NCBI GenBank assembly: GCA_020438795.1
Contig: JAGQTY010000010.1
Coordinates: 1-64,000, forward strand
Origin: Actinomycetota bacterium
GTDB taxonomy: Bacteria > Actinomycetota > Actinomycetes > S36-B12 > GCA-2699445
Direction: 5' to 3'
DNA: 64,000 nt
Positions 15,754 to 51,081 of this stretch are shown here, piece by piece. Position 1 is the first letter of the stretch, and every line of letters begins with the position of its first letter. Both the position numbers and the translations under genes were made by a program. The notes below the pieces were generated by a model. The model was not told the origin of the DNA, ran no database searches, and saw only the letters and a list, made by a program, of their open reading frames with translations.

Positions 15754-17169
15754 TCACCTCCTCGTGTGGGCGGGCGAGTCAAGGATCAAGGCCGCGACTT
15801 CTGCCACCCTCCAGGTCACGAGATCATCATCTGGTCTTGTTCGGCGCCGGGCCGTTGTTCCGACGAACTGCAGCACCGCCGCTAACTGGGCATCAGTGAG
15901 CTGTTCGAACAGCAACCGCGCTGCCAGCTGCCTGACCACTCCTGCGTGCCGCTCAGGCAGCTCCCCCAGCAGTTGCCGGGGCGGGTCCATCCGCAGCTGC
16001 CTCTTGTTCGGCCACCAACGACTCACCAGACTCTGGTGATGATTCCAGCGAGCGAGCGAAACAGCCGCGCTCTGCCAGGCCGCTGCCACCATGGGATAGC
16101 CATTCGGGGGTTGCCACGCAAGGGGCGCCTGTCCAGCTTCCCCCGTCATCCAGTAGAGCTCCTCAATGCCTCGCCTGCCTCGTCGACGCGAGCCCTGCGG
16201 TCGGTGACCCAGTACGCGAACGGTCGCCACAACGTCTTCGTAGGGGGTACGGAACTTCTTGCGCCTGGCGCGGGCGAATTCGGAACTGTGGAAGAGCGTC
16301 CTCAGGACCGGACGGATGGCCGTCTGACGCTGCAGATAGACCTGGGTCAAACCCCGGACCAGCGTTTGCGGGGGATCATCATCGACGAAACGCTGACACA
16401 ATTTGAAGGCGATGTGTTCAGCCGTGGCGCTGTGGTGGGCCAAGTGGTGCAGGTAAGCCTCGACCACTGCTCGACCATCGGGGGAACTGTTCGGGTGATT
16501 GAAATCCAGGACGGATACGTGCCCGGTGTAGTGGTTTCCCGGGCGATACTTCGCCAGTCCGTCCGCTCCAACGCTCCACCCCGTCAGAATCCTGGCGGAG
16601 TCGACCACGTCGGCCTGTGAGTACCCAGCGCCGATCCCCACCGTGTGCAGTTCGAGTAGCTCACGCCCGTAGTTCTCGTTGGGGGCCCGTTTGGTGCTGT
16701 CGGCGTTGTTCAGGTACCGAAGCATGGCGGGGTGGGTCGCACTGGCGAGCAGCATCTGATCGAAGCGACCCAGAGCATGGCGCCGGATCACGGTCCGGTC
16801 ATAGTCAGGGCGACTGTCCCACACGTCGTCGCTGGGGCAGGCGACGTTGAGGTGGTTCGACCAGAACTCGACCATCAGTTCGTGGAGCTGCCGCCTGCTC
16901 CAGATCGCCAGCCCCACGGTGCCCTGGCCCAAGGAGAACATCGGTCCCCAGTCGAACTCCTCGACCTGCCGGCGAACGTCTGTGACGCTCCAGCCGAGTT
17001 CAGGGAAGAGCCGGCGCACCTCATCGCCCGGCCGGTCGCTGATACTCTCAGGTTCCAGTTGCTCGTCCAGCCATGCCTTCGGTCCCATCCTGGTGATCCG
17101 GTGAACCTCAGTGGTGGTCGGACCGTAGGTGGCCCTGCGCAAGAGATGCATTGCGACGGCTCGGCCCAT
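15754..17169 (-). CDS. DUF1800 family protein
   Basis: Protein of 471 residues matching DUF1800. It has the N-terminal HLLRRATYGPT and WLDEQL segments, FWSNHLNV, the central MLRYLNNADSTKRAPNENYG, RELLELHTVGIGAGYSQADV and RILTGWSV, and a C-terminal GYP-containing region. No signal peptide is evident, although partners of Tat-exported DUF1501 proteins are often thought to leave the cell with them. Function is unknown. It is translationally linked to the DUF1501 gene downstream. ATG 17169 is placed 6 nt after a TAGGTT box, which suggests a leaderless message for the pair. Confidence 0.88.
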   Translation of the reverse strand: MGRAVAMHLLRRATYGPTTTEVHRITRMGPKAWLDEQLEPESISDRPGDEVRRLFPELGWSVTDVRRQVEEFDWGPMFSLGQGTVGLAIWSRRQLHELMVEFWSNHLNVACPSDDVWDSRPDYDRTVIRRHALGRFDQMLLASATHPAMLRYLNNADSTKRAPNENYGRELLELHTVGIGAGYSQADVVDSARILTGWSVGADGLAKYRPGNHYTGHVSVLDFNHPNSSPDGRAVVEAYLHHLAHHSATAEHIAFKLCQRFVDDDPPQTLVRGLTQVYLQRQTAIRPVLRTLFHSSEFARARRKKFRTPYEDVVATVRVLGHRPQGSRRRGRRGIEELYWMTGEAGQAPLAWQPPNGYPMVAAAWQSAAVSLARWNHHQSLVSRWWPNKRQLRMDPPRQLLGELPERHAGVVRQLAARLLFEQLTDAQLAAVLQFVGTTARRRTRPDDDLVTWRVAEVAALILDSPAHTRR

Positions 17170-18268: not shown

Positions 18269-18958
18269 CTAGTACGCATAGCCGTACACTCCGCGCTCCT
18301 GGTCACGTACCACGATGCCGTCAGCGAGCTCTACGACCCGTTTGCGGACCTGATCGACGATGTGCGAGTCGTGTGTGGCCATGACCACGGTGGTGCCCAT
18401 GCGGTTGATCCTGTCCAGCAGCTTCATGATGCCGACACTGGTGGTCGGGTCCAGGTTGCCCGTCGGCTCGTCGGCGATGAGGATCGTGGGCTTGTTGACG
18501 AACGCCCGGGCGATAGCCACTCGCTGCTGCTCACCACCGGAGAGCTGATCGGGGAACCGGCCTTCCTTGCCGTCGAGGCCGACCATCTCCAGCACTTCGG
18601 GAACCACCCGGTTCACGTGACTGCGTGGCTTGCCGATGACCTCGAGGGCAAACGCGACGTTCTGCGCCACGGTCTTGTTGGGCAGCAGGCGGAAGTCCTG
18701 GAACACCGTACCGATCTGCCGGCGCAACTGCGGGACCCGCCAGGACGGGAGCTTGCCGATGTCCTTGCCCGCAACCCACACCGTGCCCGAGGTCGGCTTG
18801 TCCTCCTTGAGGCACAACCGCAGAAAGGTGGACTTGCCCGAACCGGAAGGACCGACGAGGAACACGAACTCGCCGCGCTCGATCTCAACATTCACGTCTC
18901 GCAGCGCGGGGCTGTGCGCCCGCTTGTACGTCTTTGAGACATTGTCGAACCGGATCAT
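18269..18958 (-). CDS. ftsE: cell division ATP-binding protein FtsE
   Basis: ABC-type ATPase of 229 residues that drives FtsX. All signatures are present: Walker [11 protein letters not shown]-loop [11 protein letters not shown], signature LSGGEQQR, Walker [13 protein letters not shown], and the switch histidine in [12 protein letters not shown] 18958 ([14 protein letters not shown]) is chosen over in-frame starts further upstream because GGGAAGGG precedes it and it matches the family N terminus. A TAGACT box about 30 nt upstream could be its -10 element. It follows prfB as is usual in actinobacteria, but a 434-nt gap with a candidate small RNA on the other strand separates them. Confidence 0.97.
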
Positions 18959-19194
18959 GGTCACCCTTCCCACAGGCCAGATCTGAAGTCTAAGTTGGAT
19001 CAGCCACATGCGTGGCATTTGCCGCAGCTTGATCGGGGAATGTTCGCAACTGTGTCGTGCTCATGGTCCCGGCCATACTGAGCCGTCCCGCCAAACCGCA
19101 GCAAAGCGGACCATTTGGCCGGCATCCGGCCAGCGTTATCAAATCGTTACCCTTTGGTGATGTGAGTCACGTTGCGGAGCGTCATTATGTAATC

Positions 19195-19319
19195 ACCCAA
19201 CACCGCCCGCGGAGATTCCCCACCTCCTGCCGGGCAGGCGCTGATCCCCCAAACAGCGCATCAACACCCTCCAGGTGTGAAGAAGGGCCGGATACCCCAC
19301 CGGCCCTTCTTCTGTTTTT
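19195..19319 (+). ncRNA. candidate C-rich-loop small RNA
   Basis: The intergenic region between ftsE and prfB contains four consecutive hairpins on the plus strand. The first is 19209-19230, with GGAG/CTCC arms and loop ATTCCCCAC. The second is 19238-19259, GCGCTG/CAGCGC with loop ATCCCCCAAA. The third is 19264-19278, ACACC/GGTGT with loop CTCCA. The fourth is an intrinsic terminator at 19281-19319. C-rich loops that can pair with G-rich Shine-Dalgarno sequences are the hallmark of the actinobacterial 6C-type RNAs, but the C runs here are 4-5 rather than 6. Both neighbouring genes are on the minus strand, so the plus-strand terminator belongs to no annotated gene. The 5' end is a guess and the promoter is weak (CATTAT at 19183-19188). 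Confidence 0.5.
19281..19319 (+). terminator. intrinsic terminator
   Basis: An 11-bp perfect stem (arms 19281-19291 and 19300-19310) with an 8-nt C-rich loop is followed by TTCTG and TTTTT on the plus strand. In the minus direction, that of prfB, the stem is followed by few Ts, so the plus-strand reading fits better. It could still help to end prfB transcription. Confidence 0.75.
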
Positions 19320-19392
19320 CAGGGCTCCGGTCTTTCGAAGGCTCCGAGCAGGATTGCCGGTGGTGTCGCCGCAGGATCGCAGGAAGCGACTC

Positions 19393-20508
19393 TCAGGCCG
19401 ACTGCTTCTCGCTCTCGCGCCGCCAGCGAATGCCCGACTCGATGAACTCGTCGATATCACCGTCGAGGACATTGGAGGTGTTACCGGTCTCGGTGCCGGT
19501 CCGCAGATCTTTGACCATCTGATAGGGGTGCAGCACGTAGGAACGCATCTGGTCGCCCCAGCTCCCCGAGGCGTCGCCCTTCAGCGCGTCGAGCGCCTCC
19601 TGCTCCTGCTGGCGCTGCAGTTCCAGCAGGCGGGACTGCAGCACGCGCATCGCCGCCGCCCGGTTCTGGATCTGCGACTTCTCGTTCTGGCAGGAGACCA
19701 CGATCCCGGAGGGCAGGTGTGTGATCCGGACCGCGGAGTCGGTCGTGTTGACGCTCTGGCCACCCGGTCCGGAGGATCGGAACACGTCGATGCGGATGTC
19801 GGTCTCGGGGATGTCGATGTGGTCGGTCTGCTCGGTGACGGGCAGCACCTCGACGCGGGCGAAGCTCGTCTGCCGCCTCGACTGGTTGTCGAACGGTGAG
19901 ATACGCACCAGCCGGTGGGTTCCCTGTTCGACACTGAGCGTCCCGAACGCGTAGGGGGCGTCGATCTCGATCGTCGCGGACTTGATGCCCGCCTCCTCAG
20001 CGTATGAGGTGTCCAGGATCTGATAGGGCCAGCCCAGGCGTTCGCAGTACCGGGAGTACATGCGAAGCAGCATCTGTGCCCAGTCGGCGGCATCGACGCC
20101 ACCGGCCCCGGAGTGGATGTGTACGAGCGCGGAACGCTGGTCGAACTCCCCGCTCAGGAGCGTGTGGACCTCCAGGTCCTTGATCGCGGTCGTGAGCGTG
20201 TCGAGCTGATCATCGACCTCACGCCAGGTGTCAGCGTCGCTCTCGGACTCCGCGAGCTCCATCAGCACACCGACATCCTCGATCTCCTGCTTCAGCTCCG
20301 CGAGCCTGCGCTGTTCACCCTGGAGGAAGGACAGCCGCGACGTCACCTGCTGGGCGCGGGCCTGATCGTCCCACAAGGATGGCTCGGCAGCCTGCTGCTC
20401 GAGTTCGGCGAGTTCACGTGCGATCGCCTCCGGGTCCTGCACCGACAGGATGCTCGACAGCGTGGAGTCCAATTCGGACAGTCGTTGGGTACGTTCAAGG
20501 TCGGCCAT
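19393..20508 (-). CDS. prfB: peptide chain release factor 2
   Basis: Class I release factor that recognises UGA and UAA and triggers peptide release on the ribosome. At 371 residues it is a normal-length RF2. The stop-codon-reading tripeptide SPF lies at residues 204-206. The catalytic GGQ motif is at 249-251 in [10 protein letters not shown]. The reading frame is continuous, without the internal UGA frameshift that regulates RF2 in enterobacteria. GGAAG lies 6 nt before the ATG, and a TAGTGT box just upstream would give a very short leader. ftsE and ftsX lie downstream in the same direction, the usual actinobacterial order. Confidence 0.97.
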
Positions 20509-49245: not shown

Positions 49246-51081
49246 TCAACTGCGGACTCCGGCGACCGGAATGACCATTGCAACGGTCGTGTAGGTGTGT
49301 CCGTCGCTGTCAAGGTCAAGCGTGCCGCCGTTGTGCGCGACGATGCGCTGAACACTGGCCAGGCCGATGCCCAGACCGTCGTGCTCAGTCGTAAGTCGCT
49401 GGAACATCTTGGTCGCTCGCCGGATCTGGTCCGGGGCGATGCCCGACCCGTTGTCGGCAATCGTGAGGCTGATCCGGTCGCCTACCTGCTCCGCACTGAT
49501 GCGGATCCGAAGTGGCCGCTCGGATGAGCGGTACTTGATGGAGTTCTCGATGATGTTCACCAGCCCGGATGTGATGAGCGCTTCCTCCACACGCCAGGTC
49601 AGCCCGTCAGGGATGTCGATGCCAACCCTGGCGTCAGCGGCATCGAGATCGGCCTGTACGAGTTGTAGGGCAGCCAGCACGGTCTGTTCGACGGCCTGAA
49701 CTTGCGGCTCGTACTCACCGCCGAGTCGGGAGTAGTCGAGCAATGCGGTGATCAGGGCCTGCATCCGTGCCACACCGCCGGTGATCTCGTCCAGGGACCC
49801 CTGGACGTCTTCGTCGAGGTCCAGACCCTCCAGATCGTGCCTGAGGATGGTGGAGAAGCCGCTGATGGTACGCAGGGGTGCGCGCAAGTCGTGACTGGTC
49901 ACGTAGGCGAACTGTTCTAGCTCCTCATTGGCGTGGGCCAGCTCCGAGGTCCGTTCGGCGACAGCGGCTTCGAGTGTGTCCTGCTGCCGGTTGAGGCGCC
50001 GGTTGCTGATCCCCAGCAGGACCGACAGGACCGCCAGCAGGATCACAACGAGCGACGTGATGATGATGACGGGCCAGTACTGCTCCCAGAATGTCGGCCG
50101 GTAGAACAGCACCTCGGAGCCCGGGGGCAGGGGTTCGTCCGATAGCCCGAAGCGGACGAGTTCTCGCCAGTCGTAAGCGTTGCGATAGGTGTCGTCTGCT
50201 TCGAGTTCCGGTACCGGTTGCCCGGCACGCAGCGCCAGCATCGTATCCCAGGTCTGTTCCCCGACCAGCTGGGCGGAGATCATGTAACCACCCACGATGC
50301 CATGCCCCAGCAGGATCTCCCAGTTGCTGTATACGGGTGCGCTGCTGGCAGCGCTGAGCTGTTCCAGCGTTGTGAAGGAGCTGACCGGCGCTCCGTCGGC
50401 ATCCTGGAAGACCAACAGGTAGTAGACGGCTGCATCGTCGGGGAGCTGAGCCAGGGACGACGCCACCGAGGAGACGGACTCGTTCACATTGAACCGAACA
50501 GGAAGGTCCGGGGCACTCGACTCCAACGCGGCGGTGAAACCATCCAGGCGTTGCTGGCCTCCCGGGGACTTCGTGTCGGCGACGACCACCAGCAGGCTGG
50601 GGTCCTGAAGGCGGACGAGTTCCTCGACTGAGGCGCCATAGTCAGCGATGACGGGCACAGTGGCATCGGCGGTTGTGGCCTGCGCGCCCCCACTGGCGAC
50701 GGCGATCCGGTCCACCCCCGGCAGGAACCCCGGGTCACTGTCAAGCGCCGTCACCGCGGGCAGGCTCTCCGCAACCACGTAGTCGATCCCAGCAGTCCCA
50801 TACTTCGCCTCCAGGAAGCTGAGGAACTCCTCGATGTCACGCCCGGAGCTGAACCGACCGGAATCCAGGTACTCCACGTAGAGTTGGGCGGGCTGTCCGC
50901 TGGCCTCCTGCGCGGATTCGAACCCAGCCATGAACTCCCGGCTCCAGGGAAGGTTCTGGTCCCAGGAGTTGATGACCAGAACCCGCAGGGGCTTCGCAGA
51001 CTCCTGTGCAGAGGCCGCACCAACACCCATCAGCAATGCCAGGAGTGCTGTCATCACGACAATGAGCGAGCGCCTCACCAT
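49246..51081 (-). CDS. sensor histidine kinase with ABC-type substrate-binding domain
   Basis: Membrane kinase of 611 residues. The order is: signal peptide (about 1-26), extracytoplasmic ABC substrate-binding-like domain (about 30-320, starting PLRVLVINSWDQNLPW), transmembrane helix (about 338-360, VIIITSLVVILLAVLSVLLG), coiled linker, phospho-acceptor box FAYVTSHDLRAPLRT, and an ATP-binding domain with NIIENSIKYRS, DNGSGIAP and GLGIGLASVQ. It probably senses a small ligand through the binding-protein-like domain. No response regulator is adjacent, so it is an orphan. ATG 51081 lies 6 nt after CATACT; an in-frame GTG at 51105 is an alternative. Confidence 0.9.
   Translation of the reverse strand: MVRRSLIVVMTALLALLMGVGAASAQESAKPLRVLVINSWDQNLPWSREFMAGFESAQEASGQPAQLYVEYLDSGRFSSGRDIEEFLSFLEAKYGTAGIDYVVAESLPAVTALDSDPGFLPGVDRIAVASGGAQATTADATVPVIADYGASVEELVRLQDPSLLVVVADTKSPGGQQRLDGFTAALESSAPDLPVRFNVNESVSSVASSLAQLPDDAAVYYLLVFQDADGAPVSSFTTLEQLSAASSAPVYSNWEILLGHGIVGGYMISAQLVGEQTWDTMLALRAGQPVPELEADDTYRNAYDWRELVRFGLSDEPLPPGSEVLFYRPTFWEQYWPVIIITSLVVILLAVLSVLLGISNRRLNRQQDTLEAAVAERTSELAHANEELEQFAYVTSHDLRAPLRTISGFSTILRHDLEGLDLDEDVQGSLDEITGGVARMQALITALLDYSRLGGEYEPQVQAVEQTVLAALQLVQADLDAADARVGIDIPDGLTWRVEEALITSGLVNIIENSIKYRSSERPLRIRISAEQVGDRISLTIADNGSGIAPDQIRRATKMFQRLTTEHDGLGIGLASVQRIVAHNGGTLDLDSDGHTYTTVAMVIPVAGVRS

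Follow-up and report, generated by a model that had tools for sequence, protein, structure and literature searches.

Judged from sequence and its conservation, the gap between ftsE and prfB in the window (the whole stretch of 64,000 nucleotides that was analysed) holds a real, previously unlisted small RNA gene. The RNA is very probably a trans-acting C-loop regulator, and its most probable description (probability roughly 0.68) is that of a stand-alone, trans-acting regulatory RNA of ~120 nt, divergent from ftsE, with its own regulated promoter and terminator and likely acting as B11/6C does. Few small RNA families are known in Actinobacteria, where 6C, also called B11, is the widespread C-loop family. 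The RNA described here would be a second one, with a fixed locus beside cell-division genes, absent from Rfam and found only in genomes without 6C. The contrast between the two offers a natural test of whether the object of selection is the C-loop design or one gene lineage, and a hairpin that mimics the anti-Shine-Dalgarno (anti-SD) sequence is a distinct feature that can readily be mutated to test its role. A bolder and rather unlikely extension is that this is a new actinobacterial family, not descended from 6C, which joins C-loop heads to an anti-SD mimic, is under MtrA- and CRP-type control at a promoter facing away from ftsE, replaces a lost 6C and couples the state of division and envelope to the translation of many mRNAs with G-rich leaders.

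Locus and hairpins of the RNA

The gene and its surroundings in the window are as follows.

18269-18958, minus strand: ftsE, divergent neighbour
19198-19319, plus strand: small RNA gene, core of ~120 nt (match to covariance model R1, and fold)
19205-19235, plus strand: hairpin 1, loop AUUCCCCAC at 19215-19223; two-sided changes in 9/10 pairs
19238-19259, plus strand: hairpin 2, loop AUCCCCCAAA at 19244-19253; two-sided changes in 6/7 pairs
19264-19278, plus strand: hairpin 3, CACC-CUCCA-GGUG, near-invariant; 3/4 pairs never vary
19279-19319, plus strand: hairpin 4, the intrinsic terminator (13-bp stem at 19279-19312, tail UGUUUUU to 19319), loop AUACCCCA at 19292-19299; two-sided changes in 12/13 pairs
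19393-20508, minus strand: prfB, convergent neighbour

Both flanking genes lie on the minus strand, opposite to the RNA, as the original prediction had stated. The 3' hairpin of the RNA is the sole terminator-like site in 18900-19500 and, in the window, its U tail occurs on the plus strand only. We infer that the RNA of this gap is transcribed, and from the plus strand. A small RNA between prfB and ftsE was not found in the literature.

RNA folding of 19195-19325 gave -61.1 kcal/mol, compared with -39.1 +/- 3.5 kcal/mol for shuffled sequences (z -6.3), none of the 200 shuffles being as stable. The fold consists of four hairpins (H1-H4), the last with a U-tailed terminator, and both in the window and in other members the C tracts are left unpaired in the loops. 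All three loops quoted in the original prediction are present, the last of them in the U-tailed terminator as claimed. Its description of four C-loop hairpins is right as to the number of hairpins but not as to a fourth C-loop, since the loop CUCCA of hairpin 3 is anti-SD-like and has no C run. This hairpin, which in the fold gains one A-U pair beyond CACC-CUCCA-GGUG, copies the anti-SD tail of 16S rRNA (CACCUCC), and a second anti-SD-like stretch, CACCUCC, is located at 19220-19226. The prediction had also named an extra hairpin, which exists and, as can now be added, includes the anti-SD mimic, the most conserved part of the RNA.

The C runs of the window loops are C4, C5 and C4 only. Among relatives, the loop of hairpin 1 is AUAUCCCCCCCAAC and that of hairpin 4 is C6-C8 in most cases, whilst hairpin 2 has a C-loop in the window, in two further genomes (L042, L043) and in the short forms described below, and a triloop in genera g3 and g5. 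Loop C runs are kept while stems change, and the outer loops of most sister species have 6-8 Cs; the 4-5 C loops of the window look like a local shortening peculiar to its species. The suggestion of shorter C runs than in 6C thus applies to the window's species but not to sister genera, whose first and last loops reach 6-8 Cs.

Conservation and covariation

A plain DNA search recovered the RNA from four of seven same-family relatives. Model R1, built from three of those relatives with the window left out, identified a strong copy in all eight family genomes, which represent five genera and include the window's own genome (match at 19198-19315, 46 bits, E 1.1e-5 per whole genome). Every one of these eight copies is in a gap adjoining ftsE and/or prfB. 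A shorter form, made up of a C5-C6 loop hairpin, the hairpin CACC-(C)UCC(A/G)-GGUG and a terminator whose loop is C6-C7, occupies the ftsE gap of seven more genomes of the same order, six from genus g11 of family f7 and one from family f4. The genomes read from families f2, f3, f5 and f6 contained no such element; in the f3 and some f5 genomes no ftsE was located close enough to prfB. Model R2, run against 297 genomes of the class, returned no convincing member beyond the order, and none there by prfB or ftsE, the inspected matches being ordinary terminators or a 6C-like RNA (L064). Two matches came from a pattern scan of named genomes: the relative G006, already known and a 'Micrococcales bacterium' MAG, and a stretch of coding DNA that matched by chance. 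A weak model match at 50273-50398 on the minus strand of the window had no C-loops on reading and was treated as chance.

In an alignment of 13 members, standard pairs account for 97% of cells, and compensatory change on both sides is seen in 28 of 34 pairs; none of 500 shuffles reached any of these measures, and sliding the partners by 1-3 bases lowered pairing to 35-50%. A cleaner set of 10 members retained two-sided changes in 22 of the 34 pairs. Both alignments were fitted to the structure; when six members were aligned by plain MAFFT, such changes occurred in 8 of 25 pairs, and members folded singly adopted the same hairpins. The stems are conserved as the original prediction required, at the same locus in eight of eight family genomes and with compensatory changes in all of them except the sequence-invariant hairpin 3, whose family-wide invariant stretch is CCUCCAGG. 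Such near-constancy of sequence is what a reading head or a binding site would lead one to expect. Evidence for the strand from G-U versus A-C pairs is weak (8 vs 4), and the U tail is weak or absent in some relatives.

Upstream block and possible targets

When the eight family genomes are aligned without gaps from the 5' end of the RNA, a shared block extends from about -66 to 0, with an identity of 0.57-0.77 per ten bases that drops to ~0.3 beyond -70. The features upstream of the RNA in the window are the following.

19134-19150, plus strand: direct repeat CGTTAT-N5-CGTTAC, MtrA-box-like, upstream of the small RNA and, further off, of ftsE
19156-19171, plus strand: palindrome GGTGA-TGTGAG-TCACG, overlapping the place of a -35
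19183-19188, plus strand: putative -10, CATTAT; family form CAT[TG][AC]T, A2 and T6 being present in all eight genomes
19194-19204, plus strand: putative 5' end, placed from the -10, and single-stranded leader CACCCAAC, conserved in 7/8

The palindrome, which we take to be a putative CRP/GlxR-type site, has the exact form GTGA-N6-TCAC in six of eight family genomes and a decayed left half in the other two, and its spacing to the -10 is constant in all eight. The direct repeat (reverse complement GTAACG-N5-ATAACG; family form CGTTAY-N5-CGTTAY) likewise keeps a constant distance to the RNA in all eight, whereas its distance to ftsE varies from ~134 to 249 bases among strict repeats. It resembles the MtrA consensus GtnAcC-n5-GTnAcn (PMC13189361), and MtrA binds the ftsE promoter of Dietzia (PMC9599347). 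Two genomes that lack the RNA (L096, L109) carry the repeat in their ftsE gap as well, and it may therefore be an older ftsE site that is now shared. A sigma-70 consensus scan found no promoter and there is no canonical -35; the ATnAT element is near-palindromic and is readable as a -10 on the other strand too. Taken together, the upstream block probably marks a promoter on the plus strand that is directed away from ftsE. The MtrA-like repeat and the palindrome of CRP type hint at regulation through cell-envelope and cAMP-type signals. Shortly before ftsE itself, the motif AGTCTA, which reads TAGACT on the ftsE strand, is conserved at ~18988-18994 of the window and in L104, L105, L106, L110 and L112; it looks like the -10 of an ftsE promoter across families.

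The RNA would be transcribed from its own promoter, divergently from ftsE, and would end at its own intrinsic terminator. The single-stranded C tracts of its loops, including that of the terminator, would then initiate base pairing to G tracts located at ribosome binding sites or next to them, leading to a translation block of several mRNAs, whilst hairpin 3, as an anti-SD copy, could act as a second head that reads ordinary GGAGG sites. In mycobacteria, B11 blocks translation by means of its terminator C-loop, which targets G tracts adjacent to ribosome binding sites (PMC12395582), and either of two B11/6C C-loops suffices on a six-G 5' UTR (PMC10470900). Because the anatomy is shared with B11/6C, C-loop pairing is the best reading here, and by this analogy we infer that the RNA may pair with G-rich ribosome binding sites.

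The GAGGAGG site of the DUF1501 gene, offered in the original prediction as an example of a G-rich ribosome binding site, is real (CACACGAGGAGGTGAACCCATG) but complements CACCUCC at 19220-19226 and CUCC, not the C runs; the sequence before its ATG, GAGGAGGTG, fits hairpin 3 and CACCUCC better than the C runs, as most Shine-Dalgarno sequences would. Just upstream of the DUF1501 start, within the DUF1800 reading frame, CCTGGAGGGTG (window ~15804-15814, minus strand) matches hairpin 3 (CACCCUCCAGG) with perfect complementarity over 11 bases, which may be due to chance. For the C runs, a search of genus g5 for GGGGGGAT before an ATG gave eight matches, three of them before long reading frames, two of which are an ftsI-like penicillin-binding gene with a transpeptidase domain. 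Its ribosome binding site, GGGGGGAU in two g5 genomes (L118, L121, ~1501-1520), is a perfect complement of AUCCCCCC loops. Tracing this G6 site through the eight family genomes located it only in g5 and not in the window's genome, and as a possible target of the RNA it is a weak lead. Another possible C-loop target is the frame of G006 that begins MSMPFYVSPEQ (L114:1491-1517), with the ribosome binding site AGGGGGGGAUUCCUAAUG; it presumably encodes a proteasome alpha subunit, and a searched 90-residue stretch of it had no Pfam match.

Relation to 6C and competing explanations

At both gathering and permissive thresholds, Rfam gave only chance-level matches for the RNA, including one to RF02791 (13.5 bits against a 65.3-bit cut-off). 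The 6C model (RF01066; membership cut-off 47 bits) had no match in the window, none at E<=10 in 19050-19400 and none at E<=1 in L002-L006, L044, L047, L063, L065, L078, L079 and L081, whilst two positive controls (L011, L012) passed it in the same type of search. Matches to it at E 0.08-8 in family genomes lack, on inspection, paired C-loop hairpins at the 6C locus and were rejected. The view that the RNA is 6C in style yet of another class thus survives the covariance search. Canonical 6C is located at the ssd/HAD locus in f3 genomes, with Ms1-like sequence adjoining in L011 and L017, and the RNA occupies ftsE/prfB rather than this usual 6C place, which is outside the Rfam definition. With regard to the six-C, two-hairpin criterion of 6C, relatives have C6-C8 in the outer loops with one or two hairpins between, and the window has C4, C5 and C4; its last C-loop hairpin doubles as the intrinsic terminator, a 6C trait. 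The best reading is that the RNA works like 6C/B11 but belongs to a separate or far-diverged family.

Two further 6C-like RNAs were encountered. One, in G055 (L015:1501-1640), carries C-loops on three hairpins (C9, C5 and, in the terminator, C9). Its neighbour is a gene for an FAD-dependent oxidoreductase, and the site is neither the ssd/HAD nor the ftsE/prfB locus. The other (L064:1498-1571; 40.8 bits, just under the Rfam cut-off) is in G238, an 8.6-Mb genome of the same class outside the order.

One alternative is that the RNA is a relocated, strongly diverged 6C/B11, which left the ssd/HAD locus for the ftsE gap and acquired the middle hairpins. As in 6C, there are two outer hairpins whose loops hold C6-C8 and of which the last is the terminator; the HAD gene of the 6C locus is kept without 6C in three family genomes; and mobility of C-loop RNAs is indicated by the G055 example and by extra 6C copies at other places in mycobacteria (PMC9569102). 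The RNA-bearing genomes tested also lack 6C at E<=1e-3 and 6C-bearing genomes lack the RNA, but among 60 genomes tested for both (14 with the RNA, 7 with a 6C match, none with both) this non-overlap has P 0.14 by count and the genomes are not independent, so that a complementary distribution is only suggestive. As the 6C model finds nothing at E<=1 on any member locus, and the 6C consensus contains nothing equivalent to the near-invariant anti-SD hairpin, relocation is considered unlikely.

That hairpin could itself be the functional core, binding Shine-Dalgarno sequences broadly, or a protein, with the C-loops only stabilizing or supporting it. It is the sole part conserved by sequence rather than covariation, across three families, and some short forms (L049, L051) contain CACCUCC exactly as in the 16S tail. 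However, the C-loops are conserved too, in all members, and a general Shine-Dalgarno binder would need very high abundance, which makes such a decoy distinctly improbable. A further alternative is that there is no separate RNA but a cis element of the prfB-ftsE transcript, in which minus-strand G-loops and a GGAGG hairpin end or attenuate transcription between the two genes, or else a structure that terminates convergent transcripts in both directions. Conserved C-loops would not be needed by such a cis terminator. In its favour, either strand could fold into these stems, at energies that on the minus strand are similar or better, and the element sits between two co-oriented genes and beside the near-palindromic ATnAT. 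Against this stand the plus-strand U tail of the window, the conserved block at fixed spacing 5' of the plus-strand RNA and at variable distance from ftsE, the -10-like TAGACT close to ftsE in the window and several other genomes, and the f7 genomes in which several hundred bases separate the element from prfB and it stays on the ftsE side. A cis role is accordingly judged very improbable, and the stand-alone C-loop regulator is retained as the preferred reading.

Among known systems, the CcsR or CUUCCUCCUCCC-loop RNAs of Alphaproteobacteria (RF02791) also have loops that imitate the anti-SD sequence but differ in phylum and locus and share no homology with this RNA. The scr5583 and scr1434 groups of Streptomyces, reported in RNA-seq (PMC3765725), are likewise actinobacterial small RNAs with C-rich terminal loops; compared by description only, they differ in being single C-loop structures, and that report makes no mention of prfB or ftsE. 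With 6C/B11 of Actinobacteria the RNA shares stable hairpins that carry C-rich loops and include the terminator, covarying stems of high G+C content, a probable stand-alone trans-acting mode and G-tract ribosome binding sites as likely targets. It differs in having four hairpins (three in the short form) in place of two, a near-invariant anti-SD hairpin between the outer ones, loops of 4-5 Cs in the window, promoter elements other than those of 6C and, with no match to the 6C model, a position at ftsE/prfB instead of ssd/HAD beside Ms1.
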